Positions 7,191-54,026 of a stretch of DNA of 55,442 bases are shown here, piece by piece. A program made the position numbers and the translations under genes. Position 1 is the stretch's first letter, and each line of letters begins with the position of its first letter. The notes below the pieces were generated by a model. That model had not been told where the DNA came from. It was given only the letters and a program-made list of their open reading frames with translations, and did no database searches. The DNA lies in the IMG/VR virus record IMGVR_UViG_3300009159_000086, positions 1-55,442 of that record. The stretch is one strand, 5' to 3'. Source of the DNA: a virus.

Positions 7191-7574
7191 ATGGCTGAAG
7201 GTATTGTAAATAGACACGTTAAGGGTGGTTGGTTTATTGCCAAGTTTCATTCTGGTGGTTACATCAGTTTGAATTCTGCTACTGCAGGAATTGGAGCAAA
7301 CTCAGCAGGAGAAACAGTTCGTTCTATGAATATTGTTTCTGCTGAATGGTCTATTGGTAATAACGCATTTTGGACAGTAAAGCGTGGTGCTAATACTGTT
7401 CTTGTTCTTTCTGATGGTCAGCATGTTTTCGATATGTCAGACTCTCGTCTTATCGACATGGAAGGTGGAAACCCATCAGCCAATATCGTAGTAACAAAAA
7501 CAGGTTCTGGTCCTTCTACTCTTATTCTTAAAGTCCATAAGACCACTGCTATTACAGGAGGCTCGGGATACTAA
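7191..7574 (+). CDS. Conserved head-cluster protein of unknown function
   Basis: A 127-aa Gly/Ser/Val-rich, likely all-beta protein starting MAEGIVNRHVKGGWFIAKF. It has a possible jelly-roll-like pattern (WSIGNNAFWTVKRGANTVLVLSDG). It sits between core genes and gene 21, and its TAA overlaps the ATG of gene 21. It might be a small virion or decoration protein; this is inference from location. Confidence 0.5.
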   Translation: MAEGIVNRHVKGGWFIAKFHSGGYISLNSATAGIGANSAGETVRSMNIVSAEWSIGNNAFWTVKRGANTVLVLSDGQHVFDMSDSRLIDMEGGNPSANIVVTKTGSGPSTLILKVHKTTAITGGSGY

Positions 7575-8230
7575 TGAAACTCATCTGTGAAGTTCATGAA
7601 GAACTAAAAGTCATTACAGAAGCTAATGAAGTAACAGGTGAAAAGAATTTCTTTCTTGAAGGTATCCTGATGCAGGGTAATCTTCAGAATAAGAATGGTA
7701 GAGTATATCCTACAACTATACTTGCGAAAGAAGTTTCTCGTTATAATCGCGATTTCGTAGAACAAAATCGTGCATATGGAGAATTAGGTCATCCAACAGG
7801 ACCTACTATCAACCTAGAACGTGTATCACACATGATTAAAGAACTTCGTCAGGATGGAGATAACTTCATCGGCAAGGTTAAGATCATGGATACTCCGTAC
7901 GGAAATATCGTAAAGAACCTTATGAAAGAAGGAGCCAAGCTCGGCTTCTCTTCAAGAGGCATGGGTAGTCTCGTTAAAAAGAATGGAATCATGGAAGTTC
8001 AAAATGATTTCTATTTGGCTACTGCTGCTGATATCGTTGCCGACCCCTCTGCTCCTCACGCGCTCGCGCACGGGATCATGGAAGGTAAAGAATGGGCTTG
8101 GAATAACGGTATCCTTGTAGAAAAGGATGTCGAAGAAATCAAAGAAGAAATCGAAAAGGCATATGTTAGCGCAGCAGATCGCGAGACTGTTTTACTTAAC
8201 GCCTTTAGTCGTTGGCTAAACAAAATCTAA
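7574..8230 (+). CDS. 21: Prohead core protease (gp21-like)
   Basis: A 218-aa protein of the T4 gp21 serine protease family, which cleaves scaffold and capsid proteins after (I/L)xE during head maturation. The family pattern is clear: NGRVYP near residue 41, GELGHP with the candidate catalytic His73, and LGFSSRG with the candidate nucleophilic Ser126/127. The neighbours are the expected ones, scaffold 22 and capsid 23. A candidate target site is present in the capsid protein (LGE at residues 60-62). Confidence 0.92.
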   Translation: MKLICEVHEELKVITEANEVTGEKNFFLEGILMQGNLQNKNGRVYPTTILAKEVSRYNRDFVEQNRAYGELGHPTGPTINLERVSHMIKELRQDGDNFIGKVKIMDTPYGNIVKNLMKEGAKLGFSSRGMGSLVKKNGIMEVQNDFYLATAADIVADPSAPHALAHGIMEGKEWAWNNGILVEKDVEEIKEEIEKAYVSAADRETVLLNAFSRWLNKI

Positions 8231-13483: not shown

Positions 13484-13832
13484 CGGCGAAGACCTACTAT
13501 GTACGTTAGTAGGTGATGAACCCGATTTCCTATATGTGACACAACCTTATCGCGTCGAAATAATGCAAACGCCTGCAACAATGACTGTAACTACGGCTAT
13601 CATGCGTTGGATTCCATTCGAAAGCTTAATGGAACAGACCATTTGTCTTGATAAGAAAAACGTCTTGACATATATGCTAGTGGATGATATAGTTGCTAGT
13701 AAATATTTAAATACGATTGATCAGCAAGCTCAAAAAGAACGCCAAGAGCAAGCTGAAAAGATTAGACAAATGCTTATGATGCAAGCTATTCAACGTATCG
13801 CTAATAGTAGTCCGACAGGATCCATTCACTAA
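13446..13832 (+). CDS. Small Sm-like (Lsm-fold) protein
   Basis: A 128-aa protein. The N-terminal 65 residues (YFLKMYSGEDLLCTLVGDE, LYVTQPYRVEIMQ, IMRWIPF) follow the strand pattern of short Lsm/Hfq-like proteins common in T4-like environmental phages. The C-terminus is a charged helix (QQAQKERQEQAEKIRQ) and a Ser-rich tail. AGGAG at 13436-13440 is 5 nt from ATG 13446, which rules out the GTG overlapping the Shine-Dalgarno sequence. It resembles the protein at 31952. RNA binding is a family-level guess. Confidence 0.5.
   Translation: MDQGEVYFLKMYSGEDLLCTLVGDEPDFLYVTQPYRVEIMQTPATMTVTTAIMRWIPFESLMEQTICLDKKNVLTYMLVDDIVASKYLNTIDQQAQKERQEQAEKIRQMLMMQAIQRIANSSPTGSIH
13665..13693 (+). promoter_or_regulatory. 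Possible internal early promoter ahead of gene 55
   Basis: TTGACA, 17-bp spacer, TATAGT inside the Sm-like gene, about 140 nt upstream of the late sigma factor gene. Confidence 0.45.
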
Positions 13833-14401
13833 TGACCGAATCAGTTAAACCTCCAAAGAAAAAGACGCATTACGTTAACAATAAAGAACTGTACGCGGCT
13901 ATGGTCGAGTATAAGAAATCCGTTAATGAAGCTAAAGAAGCTGGTAAGCAGAATCCACGCATTCCCAACTATATTGGTGAGTGCATCATGAAGATTGCTA
14001 CACATTTGGCTTATCGCCCGAACTTCGCTAACTATACGTTCCGCGAAGAAATGATTTCTGATGGAATCGAAAACTGTTTGCTCTATATCAATAATTTTAA
14101 TCCGGACAAATATCAGAACCCATTCGCATACTTCACTCAAATTATCTATTTCGCTTTCATTCGTCGTATCCAGAAAGAAAAGAAACATCTGTATACTAAG
14201 TATGCAGCGATTGAGTATGCTAACATGATGGGAGAAACTTCTGATATCCAAGCAGGTGATAAAACCAACTACGACACTGATATCAAGTATGGTGAATGGT
14301 CGCAGGAGCAGATGGAAAAGTTTATGTTGGATTTTGAAACAACAAAAAATATCAGACGAGGCAAGAAACCTGCAGAGGTAGTTGAAACTAAGGCTGAATA
14401 A
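13832..14401 (+). CDS. 55: Late transcription sigma factor gp55
   Basis: A 189-aa highly diverged sigma factor that directs host RNA polymerase to TATAAATA late promoters with clamp gp45 as activator. The conserved core lies at about residues 65-130: REEMISDGIENCLLYINNFNP, NPFAYFTQIIYFAFIRRIQKEKKHLYTKY (region 2-like). It is slightly longer than T4 gp55 (185 aa). ATG overlaps the preceding stop (TAATG), and its own TAA overlaps the ATG of gene 47. Late boxes of the expected type recur in this window. Confidence 0.93.
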   Translation: MTESVKPPKKKTHYVNNKELYAAMVEYKKSVNEAKEAGKQNPRIPNYIGECIMKIATHLAYRPNFANYTFREEMISDGIENCLLYINNFNPDKYQNPFAYFTQIIYFAFIRRIQKEKKHLYTKYAAIEYANMMGETSDIQAGDKTNYDTDIKYGEWSQEQMEKFMLDFETTKNIRRGKKPAEVVETKAE

Positions 14402-37440: not shown

Positions 37441-37784
37441 TGAAAGTCATTGACAATCCAGCTGCTCCACGCTATACTACTGTTGAGAGGTTAGATGTAC
37501 CTAATTTCATTTGTATGCGTATTGAAGAAGGTGAGTTCGAAGGCGTCGTGTTTCACTATGAAAATTTAAAGATTTCTAGTGAAGTTGAAGATAGCGATGA
37601 ACCTTGGCTTAAATTCAATTATCACGTCGTCGAGTCTTTTTGGGCTGACGGAATGTTTGATGGTAAGCTCAAGGAAAACTTCGAAGATACTGTTGCGTGT
37701 ATTCTGCAAGACATTTTAATCAAGCAAGTAGGAAAGATTGGAAATGAAGATAGAGCTGACGATTCTAAAGAATCTGGTTCATAA
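37440..37784 (+). CDS. Conserved hypothetical protein upstream of helicase gene
   Basis: A 114-aa acidic protein (EGVVFHYENLKISSEVEDSDEPWLKFNYHVVESF, then KENFEDTVACILQDILI). This resembles a conserved small protein in the replication cluster of environmental T4-like phages. The C-terminal 13 residues are encoded in the overlap with gene 41. Function unknown. Confidence 0.6.
   Translation: MKVIDNPAAPRYTTVERLDVPNFICMRIEEGEFEGVVFHYENLKISSEVEDSDEPWLKFNYHVVESFWADGMFDGKLKENFEDTVACILQDILIKQVGKIGNEDRADDSKESGS
37450..37478 (+). promoter_or_regulatory. Possible internal early promoter ahead of gene 41
   Basis: TTGACA, 17 bp, TATACT within the start of the preceding gene, 266 nt upstream of the helicase ATG. 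Confidence 0.5.
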
Positions 37785-39165
37785 TGAAGACTTTGCTCGT
37801 AAGACATTACCATTTCTAAAAGAAGAGTATTTCGGTGACTCGTCTGAGCGTCAGGTGTTCAAGCGTATCAATGACTTTATGCTCAAGTATAATAATCGAC
37901 CCACTCGTGAAGCGATTGGGATTGACCTAGAGTCTAGCACTAATCTAAGCGAAGAAGAGCATAAGCGCTCAATGGAACTGGTTCGCGAGCTTGTCGAACC
38001 AGAACCTTCTGATATGACTTGGTTGCTTGAAACAACCGAGGGATTCTGTCAAGAGCGCGCAGTCTATAATGCCATCATGGATAGTATCGCTATTCTTGAT
38101 GGCAAAGATAAGAACAGAACTAAGAACTCGCTTCCAGAAATTCTTGCTGAAGCGTTGGGCGTGTCGTTCGATAGTCATGTCGGTCACGATTTCATTGAGG
38201 ATTTCGAAGAGCGATATGATTTTTATCATCGTAAGGAAGAAAAGATTCCGTTCGACCTAGAGTTGATGAATACTATCACTCGCGGTGGATTATCTCGTAA
38301 GTCACTTAATATCATTCTTGCTGGCACTGGTGCTGGTAAGACTCTGATGATGTGTCATCTTGCTGCGGCTAATCTAACGCTCGGTAAGAACGTCCTGTAT
38401 ATCACTATGGAAATGGCTGAGGAAAAGATCGCTGAGCGTATCGACGCTAATCTGTTGAATGTGCCTCTTGATGATCTTGGTCATCTTCCGAAAGATATGT
38501 ACGATAGTAAGATTGCTCGTGTCAAGTCGAAGACTGAAGGCAAGCTTATCATCAAGGAATATCCTACTGCGTCCGCGCACGTAGGTCACTTTCGTCACCT
38601 CCTGAACGAGCTTAATCTAAAGCGAAGCTTCGTACCCGACATTATTTACATCGACTATCTCAATATCTGCTGCTCTTCTCGAATCAAGACAGGTTCTAAC
38701 GTAAACAGCTATACCTATATCAAGGCTATTGCGGAAGAACTGCGCGGACTTGCTGTCGAAAAGAACGTTCCTATCGTGTCTGCTACTCAAACAACTAGAA
38801 CTGGCTATTCATCAAGCGATCCTGGTCTCGAGGATACTTCCGAGTCTTTTGGTTTGCCTGCTACGGCTGACTTCATGATTGCTCTTGTTCGCACAGACGA
38901 ACTTGACGAAGCGGGTCAGGTCATGGTCAAGCAGCTTAAGAATCGCTACGCTGATCCTGCTATCAACAAGAAATTCGTACTAGGTATCGACAGAACCAAG
39001 ATGCGTCTATTCGACACTGAGGCGTCTGCTCAGGACGATTTGATTGACGATAATCGTGGTGGCAAAACGAAGCGCTCTGATGCTGTTATGGATAATAGCA
39101 AGTTTGGGATGGAAGATCGTGAACGCAGTAAGCCTAAAGCTAAATTCGGAAACTTCAAGTTTTAA
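37744..39165 (+). CDS. 41: Replicative DNA helicase gp41 (DnaB-like)
   Basis: A 473-aa hexameric helicase. The N-terminal domain (ILKNLVHNEDFARKTLPFLKEEYF) resembles T4 gp41. The RecA core has Walker A AGTGAGKT (about residues 193-200), ITMEMAEEKIAERID, Walker B DIIYIDYLNIC near 300, VSATQTTR and LVRTDELDEAG, then KNRYADPAINKKFVLGID with the arginine finger region. AGGAAAG 7 nt before ATG 37744 decides the start over the TTG at 37738. It pairs with primase gp61 (53022). Confidence 0.96.
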   Translation: MKIELTILKNLVHNEDFARKTLPFLKEEYFGDSSERQVFKRINDFMLKYNNRPTREAIGIDLESSTNLSEEEHKRSMELVRELVEPEPSDMTWLLETTEGFCQERAVYNAIMDSIAILDGKDKNRTKNSLPEILAEALGVSFDSHVGHDFIEDFEERYDFYHRKEEKIPFDLELMNTITRGGLSRKSLNIILAGTGAGKTLMMCHLAAANLTLGKNVLYITMEMAEEKIAERIDANLLNVPLDDLGHLPKDMYDSKIARVKSKTEGKLIIKEYPTASAHVGHFRHLLNELNLKRSFVPDIIYIDYLNICCSSRIKTGSNVNSYTYIKAIAEELRGLAVEKNVPIVSATQTTRTGYSSSDPGLEDTSESFGLPATADFMIALVRTDELDEAGQVMVKQLKNRYADPAINKKFVLGIDRTKMRLFDTEASAQDDLIDDNRGGKTKRSDAVMDNSKFGMEDRERSKPKAKFGNFKF

Positions 39166-41190: not shown

Positions 41191-41198
41191 TATAAATA
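41191..41198 (+). promoter_or_regulatory. T4-type late promoter 5 nt before an ATG (TATAAATA)
   Basis: An exact late consensus immediately after a terminator. Only TATCT separates it from ATG 41204, so the late mRNA should be leaderless. Confidence 0.75.
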
Positions 41199-41203
41199 TA
41201 TCT

Positions 41204-42604
41204 ATGGCAAATCCTATCAGAATGGCAAGCGGACTGACTTCATGCTATAAGTATGTCACTTATGCAATAGAAGTACTTAAAAAAGACGCACCTATCGCAT
41301 TCATTAATCAAAAGACTGGCGGTGGGGATCCCGTCATGCTTAATCCTACAAAAAAATCACGCGATCATGCTATTAATGTTCTTAAGACTTTTATCGAAGG
41401 TAATAAGCTACGAGCTGACATAACAGATCTAGCAGCATATAAAAATGCTGTCGATTCGATAGAATTAGATACTTCAAAAGAAGCTGACAAATGGTTCCCT
41501 GTTGGCTCTATCATGAAGAGCAGCGAAAAAGTTCCTTTCGGATATCTTGCCGAAGTTCTACTTCAGGCTGCTATTGTTGCTAGATTTGTGGAAGGTAGAA
41601 CTGGAACTAGTATCACTCCTACTCATGTAGCCAAATATCTTAAACAGTTTCTAACAGATAAATCAGATTCTGGTGCATATACTGCGGTTAAAGGTCCAAC
41701 AGATACTAAGAAATCTATAGCCAAAGCGTTTAAGTTTACTGTTCCAAACAAAAAAACTTCTGTGGGTGTAGACACAGTTTATGTATTCTACGTTCTTAAT
41801 GGATCGGCTTTTACATATCTTAATGCTAGAAAATCTGTTCTTGCTTCTAGCACCGACTTAGCACCATATATCGCAGACGCATGTAGATATGTTAACTCTG
41901 GAGCATGTAAAGAACATGCTGAATATTTTTACAACAACGGTCGTAGAGATCGTATAGACATCGTATCGACCAGCATTTCTGGTCAGGATAAAAAAAATCC
42001 TTCGAAAGCTGACATCGTGACTGCATACTATGAAGGTTGGTCTGGTAACGACTCTAGTCCAGGCAAACCAATCGCAATGAAACTTAATCTTTCTGTTAAG
42101 ATTAATCACATTACTCAGGTTGGTCAGGCTTCTGGTCTTCATTCTGAAGCTATGAAAACGTTCGCGAGCGCAGTTGGAATGACATTATCGACAACAACTA
42201 TCAACAAGATTAACAAAATTAATCTAGAACCAATCACGCCACAATCACAAACAGAAGTATATAAGTTGGTTTACAACGAAATGTCAAAAGCTAGTGATAT
42301 CGATAAACTCATAAATGGTATTAGCTATTTCATCTCATTCAACGATAAAACTATCAATGTCGTAGACATTGGTGCTGGACTTAAAGTATATTTCGTTGAA
42401 AACTTACAGATGCTCAAGCGTCAGTTCAAAGGTAAAAAAATGTCAGCTAAGGTTCGTACGACCGGTGGTGGTAATTATGTGCTAGACGTATATCTAGGAG
42501 ATAGTCAAATACTAGAACTAAGTTCACGTAAGACTGGTGGTATTTACCGCAACTTCGTAAATACGGGTGATGCATTAAGAAACATACTAAGCAAACCATT
42601 ATGA
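41204..42604 (+). CDS. Late hypothetical protein, probably virion-associated
   Basis: A 466-aa protein of mixed alpha/beta composition with no motif I can assign. Visible blocks are VPFGYLAEVLLQAAIVARFVEGRTG (about 108-132), a Lys-rich middle, NPSKADIVTAYYEGW (about 265-280) and DIGAGLKVYFVENLQMLKRQFKGKK near the C-terminus. It has its own late promoter and terminator, and element B follows it. Late expression suggests a structural or head-internal role; family not recognised. Confidence 0.55.
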   Translation: MANPIRMASGLTSCYKYVTYAIEVLKKDAPIAFINQKTGGGDPVMLNPTKKSRDHAINVLKTFIEGNKLRADITDLAAYKNAVDSIELDTSKEADKWFPVGSIMKSSEKVPFGYLAEVLLQAAIVARFVEGRTGTSITPTHVAKYLKQFLTDKSDSGAYTAVKGPTDTKKSIAKAFKFTVPNKKTSVGVDTVYVFYVLNGSAFTYLNARKSVLASSTDLAPYIADACRYVNSGACKEHAEYFYNNGRRDRIDIVSTSISGQDKKNPSKADIVTAYYEGWSGNDSSPGKPIAMKLNLSVKINHITQVGQASGLHSEAMKTFASAVGMTLSTTTINKINKINLEPITPQSQTEVYKLVYNEMSKASDIDKLINGISYFISFNDKTINVVDIGAGLKVYFVENLQMLKRQFKGKKMSAKVRTTGGGNYVLDVYLGDSQILELSSRKTGGIYRNFVNTGDALRNILSKPL

Positions 42605-42659: not shown

Positions 42660-42667
42660 TATAAATA
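42660..42667 (+). promoter_or_regulatory. T4-type late promoter (TATAAATA)
   Basis: An exact late consensus 69 nt upstream of ATG 42737. The intervening leader contains no obvious open frame and ends with AGGAG at 42728-42732. Confidence 0.72.
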
Positions 42668-42736: not shown

Positions 42737-43918
42737 ATGAAAGGTTTTAAAAGTTTCGTAGTGGAAACTGCGTTTTCTGCTGAAGAAGACAAGTCCCACT
42801 ACACACATATCGAAGATGAGCTGTATGTTTCAGGCGCTCGTTCTTTCGATAAGATCAATGGTTTTTTTCATGACCTTATCAAAGGCATTCCAGAAACTGT
42901 AAATCAGACTAAGATCGACGGTGCTCCTAGCGTATTCTATGGCTACAACAATGGTAAGTTTTTCGTAGCCACTAAGTCTATCTTCAACAAAGACCCTAAG
43001 ATCAACTACACAGTTGCTGACATCGAAGCTAATCATGGTCATGCGCCTGGGCTCGTAGCTAAACTAAAGCTCGCCCTAGAATATTTTCCCTCAATCACAA
43101 ACAATCGTAACGAAATCTTGCAAGGCGATATGATGTTCGCTAAGTCCGATTTGCGTAAGGTTAAGATTGACGGCGTGCTCCATTGGTTGTTCAAGCCTAA
43201 CACAGTAACAAATGCTGTTCCAGTCGATTCCGACTTGGGTAAGCTTATCGGTCGTGCTACTGTTGGTTTCGCGCCTCACACCAAGTACAATGCAGCTGGC
43301 AGCCGCGTGACCATACAGGCTCGCGATATCAAGAAGAACGCTCAGGTATTCATTATGCCTATCGACGCTCCTATGCTAAGTGGGGTGGGTCATATCCAGG
43401 GATATATCGACGAAATCTCAACTATGCTTTCATCACTTCCTAAGGATGGGCTTGCGTATGTTTCTTCACCGGAAATGAGCAAGTGGTTCCTACAGTATGC
43501 TAACGATGTCATTCGTAACAATACTAATCAGACCTACAACGGATTCGTCAAGTTTATGAATGATAAGTTGCAGAAAGAAGTAGATAAGGTAAAGAGCGAT
43601 AAGGCTAAAGCTGCCAAGCAACAGACGCTCGATGAAACGATTGCTAGTATCAAGCAGAACGCTAGTGGAATTGCTGCTGTGTTCGAAGCTCATACTGAAA
43701 TCGCTGACATGAAAGATAAGATTATTGACGAGCTTGATAAGTATCAACCAATTCGTAGATATTTCGAAAACGAGTTCGGTGGTCTTGTAAGAACGAATCC
43801 TGAGGGGTATGTGTTACTTGGAAAACACGGTACAGCTAAATTAGTCAAGCGTCGCGTGTTCAGTGCGCAGAATTTTGCTGCTGGTGCATACAGAAAAGCA
43901 GGAGCGAAAGATGAATAA
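42737..43918 (+). CDS. Putative ligase-fold nucleotidyltransferase (DUF6267-like)
   Basis: A 393-aa protein belonging to a conserved late-gene family of aquatic T4-like phages. Its motifs resemble the DNA/RNA ligase superfamily. TKIDGAP (K59-I-D-G62) resembles motif I KxDG with a nucleophilic Lys. GKFFVATKS (about 73-81) and ILQGDMMF (127-134) resemble motifs III/IIIa, PEGYVLL (355-361) motif IV, and AKLVKRRV (K368, K371) motif V. The I-to-IV spacing (about 300 residues) is longer than in typical ligases, so the assignment is tentative. A Lys-rich coiled segment lies at about 275-310. It overlaps the nucleotidyltransferase gene by 8 nt. Confidence 0.5.
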   Translation: MKGFKSFVVETAFSAEEDKSHYTHIEDELYVSGARSFDKINGFFHDLIKGIPETVNQTKIDGAPSVFYGYNNGKFFVATKSIFNKDPKINYTVADIEANHGHAPGLVAKLKLALEYFPSITNNRNEILQGDMMFAKSDLRKVKIDGVLHWLFKPNTVTNAVPVDSDLGKLIGRATVGFAPHTKYNAAGSRVTIQARDIKKNAQVFIMPIDAPMLSGVGHIQGYIDEISTMLSSLPKDGLAYVSSPEMSKWFLQYANDVIRNNTNQTYNGFVKFMNDKLQKEVDKVKSDKAKAAKQQTLDETIASIKQNASGIAAVFEAHTEIADMKDKIIDELDKYQPIRRYFENEFGGLVRTNPEGYVLLGKHGTAKLVKRRVFSAQNFAAGAYRKAGAKDE

Positions 43919-46900
43919 GTCTGTTGTAATCGTTCCGCTTGGTAGATTCAGTCCCCCTCATAAGGAGCATGAAAGCTTAGTCAACTCAGTATTGAAGTTG
44001 GCTAAACAAACACATAGTGACGCTAAGATATTCGTTTCGCGCACAGTCGACAAGAAAAAAAACCCACTGACTCCGCAGGAAAAAATTAAGTATCTGAACA
44101 AGATGTTTCCTGGGCATAAAGGTATGTTTGATATGCCTCCTGCGAATAATCCGACGATGATTGGTGCACTTGCCGCTCTATCTGGTAAGTACGAAACAGT
44201 TCATATCGTTCTTGGTGACGACAGAGTTGCAGCAACTGAAACACTAGTCAACAAGTACAACGGAAAAGATTTCACGTTCGACAAGATAGTCGTTCATTCG
44301 CGTCATTCTATCATAAGCACTCGCGTTGGTGATGCAGACGGCGTACACGCCTCAGATATTCGCAAATGGGCTCAACAAGGTGATTTCGATAAGGTTCGTG
44401 AATCTATGTCATCGCATTTATCTGATGCCGACGTAAAGGAGATCATGCACTTGATACAGTCACGTTTAGGAGCTCTTAAGGAATCTACGCTCGACGAAGT
44501 GTTTTCATACTATATCACTGAGTCTGAAGATGAGCCATCTATTTCTATGCCATCTGATGCTGATATGGCTAAGCAAATCGAAGCTATGTCTGATGAAGAG
44601 CTAGATCTACAAGATTCAGATGTGGTTATGTTAGACGTTATCGTAGGTCACGATATCGAAAAAGAAAACGTATCCGAAGCTAAGGTTCTTTCTATACAGA
44701 CTCGTCAGAAACTAGCTCAGCGCATGAAGGGGATGGCAAAGCGTTTGTCTCGTCTTCGTCAAATCAAAGCTAAGACTATGCCTGCGCAACAGCGTTTGCG
44801 TATGCGCGCTCGTAAGGCAGCTATCATGATGCTGCGTAAGCGCGCAACAGGTAAGAAAGATTTACAATATAGTTCACTTTCAAAGTCACAGAGAATTGCA
44901 GTTGACAACGCACTTGTTAATCGTTTTGGTAAGTCGCTCAACTCTGCTGTAGACAAACTATCAAAGAGAATCATGCCAATGATCCGTAAGAAAGCACAAG
45001 CTAATGTAGCAAAAGCCCGTGACGTTAACGAAAGCTTCAATGCTTTTATCTATGAAGATAAGAAGAGCAAAGAAGGAACTGCTGCCGACGTAAAGAGTGA
45101 TATCAAGCAGGCTAAGAAACGCGGCATCTCAGTTTCAGATTGGGAAAAGTCGAAGGCTGATACGGCGCACGATTCTCCGCTGAATATTGATCCCACGAAG
45201 CTAGACAATCTTAGAATTGATCCTACAAAGAACGATCGCACAGCACCTAATCCAGAACAGGGTCATTTGCATCAGAACAGAAAACTGATGCACTATGCTC
45301 GTTCTGTTGACGAAGGTCGTAAGTCTGCTTCTGATAAGGACGCTCGTGACGCAGGTGATACGAACATTATCTATCAAATGCGCAAGACTATTAACTCTCG
45401 CGGTGAACACGAAACTGTTTTCGCTGACGGACATAAGGCGCATATTTCAGTAAACGACGCTAAGAAAATGATTGCTAAGTTCGAAGCATTACGTCTCCCA
45501 GCTGATAAACACAGCTTCACTATTGCTGCAGGTAAAAGCTTAAACTCATTCCGTAGTGTTATGTCACATGGTATTCCTAAGGATAAGCCAAAGATCAGTC
45601 TTGGTGGAAAGCAGTTCAATGAGTTTTATCTAGGCGTTGGTCGTGCTCGTACTGTATCACCGTACGATAGAGACGAGCCACCTGGTACTCGTAACATCGG
45701 CGAAATTGCTAAGGACGAGAATCGCCCAACCGATCCTAATCAAGCACGACCACTAAGTCAGAAATTAGATTTGCTATTGCGTCTTGGTTTGTCTGATCAG
45801 GAAGAACTACAGAAGTATCGTCGTGCTTTGCGTTCTAGTAAGAAACATGCGTTGCAGAGTCCACAGATGCGCGAAGCACTAGCTAATCTGCTTGATAAGC
45901 TTATCGACTTGACAACTAAGGATCCTGCGACGTACTCGCGCGTGCGCTACAACGTAATGAATAAGGAAGCTAATGCGCTTCTTCGTAAGGCGTCAGACTC
46001 TGGTGTTCCTGTAGAAATTATCTACGAAGTGTTTACTCGTGGTTTCGAAGTAAACAATAACATGAACGAAGCGTTTGGTCGTGTTAACTCGTTTATCGCT
46101 GGTGGTAGAGCTGCTGATATGGATAAGGATCTTTCAGAAAAAGTGAAAGAACCAACAGGCGGACTTAAAGATGCTTGCTGGTCTGGTTACACAGCTGTAG
46201 GTATGAAGATGAAAAATGGTCGTAAGGTTCCTAACTGCGTTCCTAAAGAAGAAATGGAAACAGAAGCTAAGTCTAATTGGGATAAGCAAGCAAGATTTGC
46301 AAAGTACGACACGATCTCGAGTCGTGGTAGTCAAAAGAAAGCTTATGTAGATCGTAACTATACTCCTATGAAAACTGATCTTGCTAAAGACGCTGATGCA
46401 GTTAGAAATGCTTTCCTTGCCAAAGGCGGAACAATTCAGAAGATTGAGCCGGGTAAGAAAACTATCAAGTCTTATGTTAAGCCTAAAAAGTACATGACGC
46501 CAAATCAAGCTTCGCGTGTTACGGAAGGTACAGAAGGCGCTAAGGGAACTGATGCTACTAAAAAGCTTTCAGACTATTACAAAAAGAATAAGTCGATTGT
46601 AAAGGCTGACGAATCATACACTGGTTCTGAACCCGTATCGAAGGATAAGAATGATCCTAAGAATCGTTTCGTAGGAACTGACACTATCGTACAGAACTAT
46701 GCTGATGCTACGCCAGGTCAGGGTAAGATCGTTAAGGAAGCTACATATAAAGGTAAGACAGTTCCTTTGAATAAGCCTATGGCGGGTGACGTAAAGAAGT
46801 CAAAGGTTTATGTTGATCCTGATGGTGATGGAAAAGCTAAGAAAGTAAACTTCGGTGATAAGACACTAAGTATTAAGAAAGATCAGCCTGCTCGCAAGAG

Positions 46901-46988
46901 ATCATATTGCGCTCGCTCTAGCGGTCAAGGCAATTTAAGCAATAAGTCGAGCGCAAATTATTGGTCACGCAGAGCGTGGGATTGTTAA
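43911..46988 (+). CDS. Nucleotidyltransferase-domain fusion protein, probably head-packaged
   Basis: A 1025-aa protein. Residues 1-185 form a HIGH-type cytidylyltransferase/NMNAT-like domain: VIVPLGRFSPPHKEHE, VHIVLGDDRV and GVHASDIRKWAQQGDF. Residues about 250-370 are a very basic helical region (KRLSRLRQIKAKT, RMRARKAAIMMLRKRATGKK). The remainder is low-complexity and charged. It includes DACWSGYTAVGMKMKNGRKVPNCVP (about 760-785), a signature seen repeatedly in virion-internal proteins of environmental T4-like phages, and a Cys/Arg-rich C-terminus (KRSYCARSSGQG, WSRRAWDC). AGGAG sits 6 nt before ATG 43911. The enzyme substrate is unknown. Confidence 0.65.
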   Translation: MNKSVVIVPLGRFSPPHKEHESLVNSVLKLAKQTHSDAKIFVSRTVDKKKNPLTPQEKIKYLNKMFPGHKGMFDMPPANNPTMIGALAALSGKYETVHIVLGDDRVAATETLVNKYNGKDFTFDKIVVHSRHSIISTRVGDADGVHASDIRKWAQQGDFDKVRESMSSHLSDADVKEIMHLIQSRLGALKESTLDEVFSYYITESEDEPSISMPSDADMAKQIEAMSDEELDLQDSDVVMLDVIVGHDIEKENVSEAKVLSIQTRQKLAQRMKGMAKRLSRLRQIKAKTMPAQQRLRMRARKAAIMMLRKRATGKKDLQYSSLSKSQRIAVDNALVNRFGKSLNSAVDKLSKRIMPMIRKKAQANVAKARDVNESFNAFIYEDKKSKEGTAADVKSDIKQAKKRGISVSDWEKSKADTAHDSPLNIDPTKLDNLRIDPTKNDRTAPNPEQGHLHQNRKLMHYARSVDEGRKSASDKDARDAGDTNIIYQMRKTINSRGEHETVFADGHKAHISVNDAKKMIAKFEALRLPADKHSFTIAAGKSLNSFRSVMSHGIPKDKPKISLGGKQFNEFYLGVGRARTVSPYDRDEPPGTRNIGEIAKDENRPTDPNQARPLSQKLDLLLRLGLSDQEELQKYRRALRSSKKHALQSPQMREALANLLDKLIDLTTKDPATYSRVRYNVMNKEANALLRKASDSGVPVEIIYEVFTRGFEVNNNMNEAFGRVNSFIAGGRAADMDKDLSEKVKEPTGGLKDACWSGYTAVGMKMKNGRKVPNCVPKEEMETEAKSNWDKQARFAKYDTISSRGSQKKAYVDRNYTPMKTDLAKDADAVRNAFLAKGGTIQKIEPGKKTIKSYVKPKKYMTPNQASRVTEGTEGAKGTDATKKLSDYYKKNKSIVKADESYTGSEPVSKDKNDPKNRFVGTDTIVQNYADATPGQGKIVKEATYKGKTVPLNKPMAGDVKKSKVYVDPDGDGKAKKVNFGDKTLSIKKDQPARKRSYCARSSGQGNLSNKSSANYWSRRAWDC

Positions 46989-47001: not shown

Positions 47002-47421
47002 ATGAATGATGAACTGATTACTATTATTGCTTTTGTTGTTGTTGTTTTTGGTATTGGATGGTATGGTATTGGATGGTATTTTTGGCCTAAGCAAAAAGTA
47101 GAAGAACTAAAGCTAGATCCTGTTCCGGAACCAGCTCCAGCTCCTGTTGTTGAGGAAGTAAAGCCTGCTCCAGTTGCATCACTAGAACCAGTTGTTGCTC
47201 CTGAACCAGCTAAAGAAGAAATCAAGGCTAACATTGACGCAAAGACAGAAGAAGCTTTCGTTAAGGCTATGGAAACTGAAGCTAAGGTAGAAGCTCCAGT
47301 AGCTGCACCAAAAGCTAAGAAACCGGCTGCTAAGAAAGAAAAGACTTTCGTTCCTGCTGCTGCTCCTAAGCCAAAGGCACCAGCTAAAAAAGCACCAGCT
47401 AAGAAGGTAACAAAGAAATAA
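47002..47421 (+). CDS. Membrane-anchored Pro/Ala/Lys-rich protein
   Basis: A 139-aa protein. Residues 5-28 are one hydrophobic segment (IIAFVVVVFGIGWYGIGWYFW). After it come Pro/Glu/Val repeats (PVPEPAPAP, VAPEPAKEE) and a Lys/Ala/Pro tail (KAKKPAAKKEKT, KPKAPAKKAPAKKVTKK) like histone-H1 or TonB-type linkers. The tail could contact DNA or span the periplasm. TAATG couples it to the Dps-like gene. Function unknown. Confidence 0.55.
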   Translation: MNDELITIIAFVVVVFGIGWYGIGWYFWPKQKVEELKLDPVPEPAPAPVVEEVKPAPVASLEPVVAPEPAKEEIKANIDAKTEEAFVKAMETEAKVEAPVAAPKAKKPAAKKEKTFVPAAAPKPKAPAKKAPAKKVTKK

Positions 47422-47855
47422 TGGAACTCGTAGAAGCACTCAAGAAAGCTCAAGCGACAACTTTTGCGTTGTATCTTAAAGCGCATAATTTTCACTGGAA
47501 CGTAGAAGGTCCTGATTTCGCGCAGTATCATGAGTTTCTGGGTGATTTCTACGCGGAAGTGTTTGGTGCAGTAGATACTATCGCTGAACTCATTCGTACT
47601 CTGGATGCTTATGCTCCTGGATCACTAACACGATTTAAAGAGCTATCGTCTATCGAAGACGAGCTATCTGTTCCCAAGGCTTTAGTTATGATTGCTAGAC
47701 TCAATGGTGATAATCAGCGTCTTCTTGTTGTACTCAACGAAGCGTATCGTATTGCGGAATCGCAGAGTAAATTCGGTATCTCAAATGCGATTCAGGATCG
47801 TATCACTGCGCATGAAAAGCATGGATGGATGCTTCGTTCATTTACTAAGGAATAA
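47421..47855 (+). CDS. Dps-like ferritin protein
   Basis: A 144-aa four-helix protein. LYLKAHNFHWNVEGPDFAQYHEFLGDFYAEVFGAVDTIAELIRTL matches the Dps signature (K-HNFHWNV-G--F---H-----Y-E----D-IAERI). His and Asp/Glu residues match the ferroxidase site. Dps stores iron and protects DNA from oxidation. Such genes occur in marine T4-like phages among late genes, so the protein may be packaged or used to protect replicating DNA. The C-terminus (AHEKHGWMLRSFTKE) is also typical. Confidence 0.85.
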   Translation: MELVEALKKAQATTFALYLKAHNFHWNVEGPDFAQYHEFLGDFYAEVFGAVDTIAELIRTLDAYAPGSLTRFKELSSIEDELSVPKALVMIARLNGDNQRLLVVLNEAYRIAESQSKFGISNAIQDRITAHEKHGWMLRSFTKE

Positions 47856-48680: not shown

Positions 48681-49853
48681 ATGTCATCTATTGATAAAAA
48701 GGCATTTGGTATTAGCGATTCGCTAATCAATGCAGTAAACGAAGCACTAAAAGGTGGTCAGGTCAAGCTCGACAAGAACCACAACGGCAAGATTGATGGT
48801 CAAGACTTCAAGATGCTCCGTAAGGAAGAAGTTGTTGACGAAGGCAATCCCGCTAATAAAGAAAAGAAAAATGCTGCTGCAGCTGCTGTTGGTGCTAAGA
48901 ACAAAGATTCTCAGTATCTAACCAGAATTAATCCATCGGTTGCTGATAAGATTCGCGGACGCGAAAAGATGTCAGGCAATGATCGTAAGCAGTTCGAAGA
49001 AGTTCAGGTAGACGAAGCCGGTATGCCTGCATCTGTTATTAAAAGCAAGCAGAACCGTGCTAATATGACTGATAAACAATTTGCTGATTCGCACAAAAAT
49101 CACTCTGATGCAGATCTAAGATCAATGGCTTGGCGTCATGGTCTTGGTAAACCAGGTACGCCAGGACATGATCATTATGTCAATAAGCGCAATAAAGGTT
49201 TGAAAGAAGACGTTGAACAGGTAGACGAACTTTCAACTGACACATATCATAGCGCTGCTAAGAAAGCTGCTAAGAGAGCTATGGGTGATGCTCAGGGTCG
49301 TTCTGGTCCTATCTTCAAGAAGTATGCCGGAATGGCTAATAAGTTCCGCGATAAGGGAATGAGCCAGGAAAAGAAAGAAAAGGCTGTGAAGGAAGAAACT
49401 GACCCAGGTTTCGTAGCCGAAGCCGATAATGCAGTAGCAAAGCAGATTGCTGCTAAGAAAGACACTTTTAAAAAGCAGCTTCAACAAAAAATTGCTGCTA
49501 AGCAAATGAACACAATGCAAGCTAAGGCTAATAAGCGTTTGTCTAACATTCATGCAAGCAACGATAAATGCACTTGTCAAGAAGGCAAGGGAAAGAGCAT
49601 GACTTGTGAGATGCATGGTGATAAAGATAAAGCTATGAAAGGTGGAAAAGAACAGATTATCGTAAATCCTCCTATGCGTGAAGCAGCCGAGCTACCTAAG
49701 AAGGTGATTACTAAGGGACATGAAATTGCTAAGTCTCTTATCAAGCACAAATCAGGTGTAGATAATCCATATGCAGTAGGGATGGCTCAGGCTAAGAAAT
49801 CTGCGAAAATGAAGGCTTATCGTTCTGAAAGAGATAAGAACAAAGAAGACTAA
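48681..49853 (+). CDS. EF-hand-like, Lys-rich late protein (probably head-internal)
   Basis: A 390-aa protein, highly charged. Residues 32-45 (DKNHNGKIDGQDF) form a canonical EF-hand loop, so Ca2+ binding is likely. Several elements recur across virion-associated proteins of environmental T4-like phages: EEVQVDEAG, EDVEQVDELS, KGHEIAKSLIKHKSGVDNPYAVGMAQAKKSAKMK, and a Cys cluster CTCQEGKGKSMTCEMHG. No enzymatic domain seen. It starts 1 nt after the previous stop. Confidence 0.6.
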   Translation: MSSIDKKAFGISDSLINAVNEALKGGQVKLDKNHNGKIDGQDFKMLRKEEVVDEGNPANKEKKNAAAAAVGAKNKDSQYLTRINPSVADKIRGREKMSGNDRKQFEEVQVDEAGMPASVIKSKQNRANMTDKQFADSHKNHSDADLRSMAWRHGLGKPGTPGHDHYVNKRNKGLKEDVEQVDELSTDTYHSAAKKAAKRAMGDAQGRSGPIFKKYAGMANKFRDKGMSQEKKEKAVKEETDPGFVAEADNAVAKQIAAKKDTFKKQLQQKIAAKQMNTMQAKANKRLSNIHASNDKCTCQEGKGKSMTCEMHGDKDKAMKGGKEQIIVNPPMREAAELPKKVITKGHEIAKSLIKHKSGVDNPYAVGMAQAKKSAKMKAYRSERDKNKED

Positions 49854-53021: not shown

Positions 53022-54026
53022 ATGTCTACTATCACTGATCATAAATATGCGAACATGATTTCTCACAAGCTTCTGCTGTTTAAGCGGAAGTCTGAGAGGG
53101 TCTATAATTTCCGCTGCCCGTTCTGTGGCGATTCACAAAAGAACAAATTGAAAACCCGTGGTTATCTGTTCGAGAAATCGGGCGGACTAATATATAAGTG
53201 TCATAATTGCGATGTCGGTACTAATCTTTATAAACTTATTGAGCTCGTTGATCCTAGTCTTGCCAAAGCGTACAGATTAGAATCATACAAAGATAAAGTC
53301 GAAGCTGGTAAGACAGACGACTTTATTATCCCAAAAACTGAAGCTCCGCGTCCTAAAATCATTCTAGACGAAATGTTGCCGAGGCTCGATGAGCTTCCAG
53401 CAACACATCGTGCTGTCGAGTATGCCAAAGGTCGTAAGATTCCTAAGGAACGCTGGAACGATCTTTACTACGCACGCGACATGAAGGTGCTAGAAAAACT
53501 TAATCCTGCATATGAAGGACGTATCGTTTCTGATGAGCGTCTTGTTATACCATTTCGTCGTGAAGATGGTTTGCTTACTGGCGTCAGTGGTCGCGCCATG
53601 GGTAACTCGTCATTGCGATATGTAACTATTCGTATCACAGATGATCCTTTGATCTATGGTCTCGATCGCGTATCTCGCGGGAAAACTATATATGTTGTAG
53701 AAGGACCTATCGACAGTATGTTCCTTGATAATGCCATTGCGGCTGGGGGAACGGACTTCGCACGAGCCCTATATAATGTTTCTGGTGAAGAAGTCGTATT
53801 AATCTTCGATAATCAACCAAGAAATAAGCAAGTCGTAAAGCGTGTAGAATCTTTTGTGCCTCGTGGTCATGGAATGGTTATCTGGAATTCTTCGTGGACA
53901 TATAAAGATATTAATGATGCTATTATGTCGGGTCTCAACAGTTCGCAAGTTGAGTATCTGCTAAATAAATCCACGTTTAAGGGCTTAGCTCTTAAGCTTG
54001 CAATCCGAGACTGGAAAAAGTGCTAA
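53022..54026 (+). CDS. 61: DNA primase gp61
   Basis: A 334-aa DnaG-type primase. The zinc-binding N-terminus has CPFCGDS (about residue 28) and CHNCDVGTN (about 61). The TOPRIM core has DERLVIPFRREDG, GVSGRAMG, YVVEGPIDSMFL (acidic Glu/Asp, about 225) and VVLIFDNQPRNKQ. Length equals T4 gp61 (342 aa). It makes lagging-strand primers with helicase gp41. The start lies just after the promoter. Confidence 0.95.
   Translation: MSTITDHKYANMISHKLLLFKRKSERVYNFRCPFCGDSQKNKLKTRGYLFEKSGGLIYKCHNCDVGTNLYKLIELVDPSLAKAYRLESYKDKVEAGKTDDFIIPKTEAPRPKIILDEMLPRLDELPATHRAVEYAKGRKIPKERWNDLYYARDMKVLEKLNPAYEGRIVSDERLVIPFRREDGLLTGVSGRAMGNSSLRYVTIRITDDPLIYGLDRVSRGKTIYVVEGPIDSMFLDNAIAAGGTDFARALYNVSGEEVVLIFDNQPRNKQVVKRVESFVPRGHGMVIWNSSWTYKDINDAIMSGLNSSQVEYLLNKSTFKGLALKLAIRDWKKC

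Follow-up and report, generated by a model that had tools for sequence, protein, structure and literature searches.

A DUF6267 protein and its nucleotidyltransferase partner as candidate ligase-like head cargo of marine T4-like phages

In phage T4, ten N-terminal residues suffice for the packaging of a protein, with positions 4 and 7 governing targeting and positions 8 and 10 processing (PMC9026906). Cyanophages, for their part, carry a nucleotidyltransferase in their virions, as reported for S-SM1 (PMC3037559), S-SZBM1 (PMC9146016), S-CREM2 (PMC10665884) and, with the identity as published, S-SCSM1 (PMC9602691). Each of the two, the virion nucleotidyltransferase and T4 capsid targeting, is thus known in its own right, and in the open-access literature we found no paper describing capsid targeting in cyanophages. 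Here we analyse a two-gene locus in the IMG/VR virus record IMGVR_UViG_3300009159_000086, the whole of which (55,442 bases, the window) provides all coordinates given below. The first gene encodes a member of DUF6267 (PF19782), a Pfam family of unknown function, and the second a member of the virion nucleotidyltransferase family. The source is a marine T4-like phage, with homologues of the head maturation protease, scaffold, major capsid protein, late sigma factor, DNA polymerase, UvsX, gp41 and gp61. What we propose that is new is ligase-like chemistry and a capsid-targeting sequence for DUF6267.

Taken as a whole, the locus is best explained as encoding a packaged ligase-like enzyme and a nucleotidyltransferase for end repair or counter-defence, a reading to which we assign a probability of about 0.6. 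It shares with T4 IPII/IPIII and Alt the pattern of the ten-residue targeting sequence, as well as late expression and a gp21-type protease; unlike in those cases, the cargo would be a ligase-like enzyme together with a nucleotidyltransferase, and its packaging is predicted from the genes.

The DUF6267 gene is closely preceded by a Shine-Dalgarno sequence, AGGAG, and its product scores 245 bits against PF19782, where the curated cut-off is 27. It also matches phrog_455 (E 1.6e-68), a PHROG family in which DUF6267 and the nucleotidyltransferase are merged into one. An earlier note on this DNA had read the segments KxDG, GDMMF, EGYV and KLVKR as ligase motifs I, III, IV and V, in that order. All four were located (Table 1), and their key residues, including the presumed nucleophile K59, do not vary across two alignments, of 36 and then 39 diverse homologues at around 30% identity, so that they are not chance resemblances. 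Two N-terminal histidines (H21 and H24), an HTxY element and an asparagine are invariant in the same alignments. The order of KxDG, EGxV and a basic motif V is that of T4 Rnl1 and Rnl2, Trl1 and the Naegleria RNA ligase; unlike those enzymes, DUF6267 has the invariant H21, H24 and HTxY and an alpha-helical insertion of its own between motifs III and IV, which is shorter in cyanophage variants.

The AlphaFold model of the window protein (predicted local distance difference test, pLDDT, 85.7; predicted template modelling score, pTM, 0.80) and that of a shorter cyanophage variant (85.8 and 0.81) were compared with the PDB using Foldseek. By our own count, ligases or capping enzymes make up 46 and 48 of the top 50 matches, led by T4 Rnl1 (0.014) and a fungal tRNA ligase (0.0039), with other RNA and tRNA ligases also among the best. 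In a library of viral structures, the DUF6267 model is matched by the RNA ligase of Agrobacterium phage Atu_ph07 (6.7e-5, probability 1.00). DUF6267 is without significant sequence or profile similarity to these ligases: a Pfam scan of the 39 members retrieved nothing beyond chance except DUF6267, and a PDB sequence search with the DUF6267 profile gave chance matches to the helical insertion only. Judged by sequence, the family lies outside the known ligase families; motifs and models together suggest that it is probably a ligase-type nucleotidyltransferase in both appearance and function.

The predicted capsid-targeting sequence (hereafter the tag), MKGFKSFVVE, agrees with MKTYQEFIAE of T4 IPII/IPIII, which is followed by A, at positions 4, 7, 8 and 10. 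Tag frequency was assessed with the pattern M-x(1,6)-[FY]-x-x-[FY]-[LIVMA]-x-E, fixed after inspection of DUF6267 N-termini. Of the window's 503 candidate Met starts, that of the DUF6267 gene alone fits it. Across related loci, 47 of the 73 DUF6267 proteins encoded separately and 10 of the 13 fused ones bear the tag, against 48 of 913 other open reading frames (ORFs); many of these 48 look like further cargo. After dereplication it is found on 26/35 DUF6267 proteins and 20/318 neighbouring ORFs (Fisher 1.4e-19, the P value being only a guide since the loci are related). Within DUF6267–nucleotidyltransferase pairs, 33 bear the tag on DUF6267 only, seven on the nucleotidyltransferase only and four on both; Syn19, S-SM1, DSL-LC02 and S-SZBM1 have it on the nucleotidyltransferase, with DUF6267 untagged.

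The virion proteome of S-CREM2 (PMC10665884), unused in making the pattern, served as a validation set. The strict pattern picks out three of its 218 proteins, and all three are virion-detected enzymes (P 0.012). With a matrix built from DUF6267 N-termini only, ranks 1-5 of 218 are all virion proteins (P = 6e-4, 51/218 being virion proteins): gp154, the nucleotidyltransferase; gp12, annotated as a Cas9-type nuclease; gp14, a kinase; gp6, an S-adenosylmethionine (SAM) hydrolase; and gp13. The ranking was cut at five, where scores drop to background; the top ten contain the same five virion proteins only (P 0.06). T4-like capsid-targeting N-termini could explain the virion presence of gp6, gp12, gp13, gp14 and gp154 (loci L202 and L204). 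In the same phage no DUF6267 gene was found in 28 kb around the virion nucleotidyltransferase gene, the one weak match, gp157, being seemingly unrelated. Separately, S-CREM2 gp190 (L205:6930-7430) is annotated as a DNA ligase, probably wrongly, as in Pfam it matches DUF6433 only. The virion delivery suggested in the earlier note is supported by a T4-type tag on DUF6267 and by a partner family present in published proteomes of relatives, although for this phage it is predicted from sequence.

The nucleotidyltransferase gene starts at an ATG at 43911, and the DUF6267 stop codon ends at 43918, giving the overlap of 8 nucleotides that had been noted before. Its identity as a HIGH-type enzyme agrees with the PHROG assignment (Table 1) and with the invariance of P15, H20, P52 and R151 among 36 family sequences, H20 lying in the HxGH-like motif and R151 being the arginine of the C-terminal SxTxxR-like motif. 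PF01467 is matched by 33 of these 36 (E<=0.01), the window copy falling below the Pfam threshold. TIGR00482 or NadD-type profiles match 11/36 (best 5.5e-8), the window copy not among them, and NadR-type profiles also match 11/36. The best PDB sequence match is MJ0951 (4.2e-5), followed by pantetheine-phosphate and nicotinamide mononucleotide (NMN) adenylyltransferases. As a first guess from sequence, the substrate would be NMN, making the protein an NMN adenylyltransferase (NMNAT). HIGH-type nucleotidyltransferases also occur in the NadM/NadR systems of phage salvage of nicotinamide adenine dinucleotide (NAD+); unlike those, the enzyme here has no Nudix or kinase fusion, and its partner is DUF6267, not NadV. 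It belongs to the same family as the cyanophage virion cytidylyltransferase (T4-GC190), which adjoins DUF6267 in S-SM1, Syn19 and S-SZBM1; unlike the latter, the window copy lacks an N-terminal tag and has a much longer extension.

The partnership is well conserved. In 80 related viral loci the two genes are fused, in either order, in 14, adjacent or overlapping in 32 and within 1.8 kb of each other in 17, while 12 have no nucleotidyltransferase downstream and five are truncated, so that 63 of the 75 informative loci have them fused or linked. In S-PM2 both domains form a single protein of 591 residues. Five loci (L064, L074, L075, L078 and L080) have a second, divergent nucleotidyltransferase upstream of DUF6267, which in alignment is without part of the C-terminal motif region and in L075 has a tag-like N-terminus.

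The T4-type promoter TATAAATA points to late expression of the pair. The window has five matches to it, each on the + strand, where mononucleotide shuffling predicts 2.7. The earlier description of the genes as late and unlinked to replication genes holds in its first half but not in its second: the locus sits between those for the gp41 helicase (37738-39165) and the gp61 primase (53022-54026), and occupies the same place in cyanophages.

The extension of the nucleotidyltransferase, some 835 residues and mostly basic, looks from its sequence like a series of joined basic cargo modules, because segments of it match small stand-alone tagged proteins. Three such segments were found. Of the terms used in the earlier note, 'basic' is correct and 'low-complexity' only partly apt. 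The E-values are from single-sequence pairwise comparisons without composition correction, and the matches of residues 251-361 and 688-742 are accordingly soft; DUF6321 itself was detected in the orthologue at L006. The 1025-residue protein also contains two internal tag-like cores where about 0.04 would be expected. Conserved internal processing sites were considered and rejected, as the cores are present in the closest relatives only.

Table 1. Features of the locus and related genes elsewhere in the window
Feature	Position	Strand	Evidence
Predicted capsid-targeting sequence MKGFKSFVVE, residues 1-10, cut expected after E10 (before T)	42737..42766	+	T4-type pattern
DUF6267 protein, ligase-like nucleotidyltransferase (probable), 393 aa	42737..43918	+	PF19782 E 1.6e-72
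Motif I, K59-I-D-G62, presumed lysine nucleophile K59	42911..42922	+	K59, D61, G62 invariant
Motif III-like, Q129-G-D131 (then MMF)	43121..43129	+	Q129, D131 invariant
Alpha-helical insertion, residues ~210-335, between motif III/IIIa part and motif IV	43364..43741	+	predicted secondary structure, both models
Motif IV, E356-G-Y-V359	43802..43813	+	E, G, V invariant
Motif V, K368-L-V-K-R372	43838..43852	+	K368, V370, R372 invariant
HIGH-type nucleotidyltransferase with long C-terminal extension, 1025 aa	43911..46988	+	PHROG 3041 cytidyltransferase 1.6e-42
Nucleotidyltransferase domain, residues 1-190, GRFSPPHKEH motif and R151	43911..44480	+	family invariants, PF01467 in relatives
Internal capsid-tag-like core FSYYITE, residues 198-204, just past nucleotidyltransferase domain	44502..44522	+	pattern match; closest relatives only
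K/R-rich module, residues 251-361	44661..44993	+	matches stand-alone tagged L086:11254-11622, E 1.3e-6
Internal capsid-tag-like core FNAFIYE, residues 376-382	45036..45056	+	pattern match; kept in L001
RVNSF module, residues 688-742	45972..46136	+	weak match, stand-alone tagged L086:13028-13297, E 0.002
DUF6321-type module, residues 939-1023	46725..46979	+	54-56% identity to stand-alone tagged L051:9244-9507, L067:11741-12004, E 7e-26
T4-type late promoter TATAAATA	42660..42667	+	exact match; 70 nt upstream of DUF6267 start
Upstream gene, own late promoter at 41191	41204..42604	+	phrog_3560 4.4e-17
Late sigma factor, T4 gp55 type	13832..14401	+	phrog_234 E 7.4e-61
Head maturation protease, T4 gp21 type, expected to cut tag	7574..8230	+	phrog_207 E 5.5e-73

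The late signal, the tag, the head protease, the conserved active-site residues and the partnership are supported by the sequence, and from these we infer the following course of events. The pair would be made late, as head cargo, the ten-residue tag carrying the DUF6267 protein into the prohead core and the head protease cleaving it after E10. Because the tag loads T4 proteins into the head, the two enzymes probably enter the host with the DNA and act on it at once; ejection of the DUF6267 enzyme along with the DNA is suggested by the sequence taken together with the proteomes of relatives. Motifs and fold point to K59 as the residue that would accept AMP from ATP and hand it to a nucleic-acid 5' end. 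DUF6267 may then serve as an RNA ligase, repairing, ahead of phage gene expression, tRNA or other RNA that host defences have cut. The nucleotidyltransferase, closest to NMN/nicotinate-nucleotide adenylyltransferases, would be co-delivered, its extension bearing the basic cargo modules, and might refill NAD+ or activate a nucleotide end.

Several observations weigh against this picture. No PDB fold match reaches E<=0.001 for either model, and TM-scores are low; hhalign comparisons of DUF6267 with the T4 Rnl1, Rnl2 and gp30 DNA ligase families are not significant, the ligase alignments being shallow. The ligase-like character proposed in the earlier note is favoured by invariant motifs and by the ligase-dominated match lists from the kind of structural comparison it had suggested, yet the assignment is provisional. 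Ten pairs have the tag on neither protein. Published virion peptides cover the partner family only, with none for DUF6267, and the untagged S-SZBM1_141, a DUF6267 protein, is missing from the S-SZBM1 virion list (PMC9146016). As the authors of one proteome themselves caution, CsCl-purified virions can hold abundant contaminants (PMC9602691). Finally, no end-healing enzyme is established beside DUF6267, and for this reason RNA repair, although the likeliest single role for the protein, is a guess as to substrate and is put forward tentatively, at rather less than even odds. In 22 loci a HAD-phosphatase-like protein (FDIDDTLF), often tagged, is found near DUF6267 (for example L006:5962-6567, L036:5850-6467, L050:12216-12839 and L056:5320-5985); it could be an end-healing partner, and was not found in the window.

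The repair, capping or NAD-related roles raised in the earlier note are all plausible. The surroundings of the locus, among replication genes (gp41, gp61 and nrdA) in the window and in cyanophages, would suit a replication or recombination DNA ligase replacing T4 gp30, its packaging being incidental or a side use, and DNA ligases are numerous in the fold lists. This is unlikely, however, in view of the late promoter and capsid tag, of a constant partner that is a nucleotidyltransferase and not a replication protein, and of a DUF6267 model that ends about 15 residues past motif V, lacking the C-terminal OB-type domain of DNA ligases. An NAD+ cycle might instead link the two enzymes, with DUF6267 taking AMP from NAD+ and the nucleotidyltransferase recycling NMN, or the pair might restore NAD+ after an NAD-depleting defence. 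The closeness of the nucleotidyltransferase family to NadD/NadR-type profiles, the name NMNAT-like given to it by others and the occurrence of NAD-rebuilding enzymes in phages all fit, but the PDB relatives also include pantetheine-phosphate adenylyltransferase and MJ0951. Moreover, the NAD+-dependent ligase family in Pfam, adenylation domain included, is matched by 0/39 DUF6267 members; we reject that identity for DUF6267 and consider the cycle as a whole rather unlikely.

That DUF6267 should put a nucleotide on host proteins or RNA 5' ends, in an AMPylation- or capping-like takeover, recalls the packaged T4 ADP-ribosyltransferase Alt, which modifies host RNA polymerase, and capping enzymes, themselves covalent nucleotidyltransferases, are present in the fold list. 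The top-scoring structures are nevertheless RNA and tRNA ligases and a protein target is without direct evidence, which makes such a takeover improbable. Least credible, and very improbable, is packaging for structural purposes such as core assembly or DNA condensation, with inactive enzyme domains: it would account for a basic extension with cargo modules, and T4 IPIII does influence head assembly, but at around 30% overall identity the catalytic motifs count among the best-conserved positions in each of the two proteins.

Membership of the gene directly upstream in the DUF6267 module is uncertain. That slot is highly variable, holding 23 mostly unalignable families in 76 loci (L001-L087), and the idea of one conserved family there was rejected. 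In many upstream-slot proteins a D...(E/S)xK pattern recalls PD-(D/E)XK nucleases, a resemblance that no profile match confirms. Just downstream of the nucleotidyltransferase gene, 47421-47855 encodes a ferritin-like (Dps-type) protein (Ferritin E 1.1e-21; PHROG 3636, DNA binding protein), and 48681-49853 a protein of 390 residues that matches no PHROG family and has, close to its N-terminus, a weak EF-hand-like calcium-binding loop.

DUF6267 was found by tblastn in at least 462 phage records, mostly of Synechococcus and Prochlorococcus phages, and the nucleotidyltransferase, a cyanophage core gene, in 553. The plasmid collection searched contained no DUF6267, and 84,980 bacterial and archaeal genomes yielded 13 loci, mostly in marine assembled genomes, which may be phage contigs; a bacterial or plasmid origin was rejected on these numbers. 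In the open-access literature we found no paper naming DUF6267 or giving it a function, so that 'uncharacterised system' is apt for this half of the pair but not for the nucleotidyltransferase, already reported in cyanophage virions.

Because DUF6267 is so frequent in cyanophages and its neighbour is a core gene, finding what the pair does would bear on some of the sea's most abundant phages. With the capsid-tag rule, the label 'unknown virion protein' can give way to a prediction open to testing; from sequence alone, the rule singled out the puzzling enzymes in the virion of S-CREM2. Possibly, though we hold this wider view with less than even confidence, DUF6267 and the nucleotidyltransferase are the conserved core of a marine T4-like phage delivery system, a new ligase branch injected with variable tagged enzymes (nuclease-like, HAD phosphatase-like, SAM hydrolase and kinase) to repair nucleic acids and disarm defence before phage gene expression. 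A ligase in the virion, if true, would mean that repair or counter-defence begins at injection.

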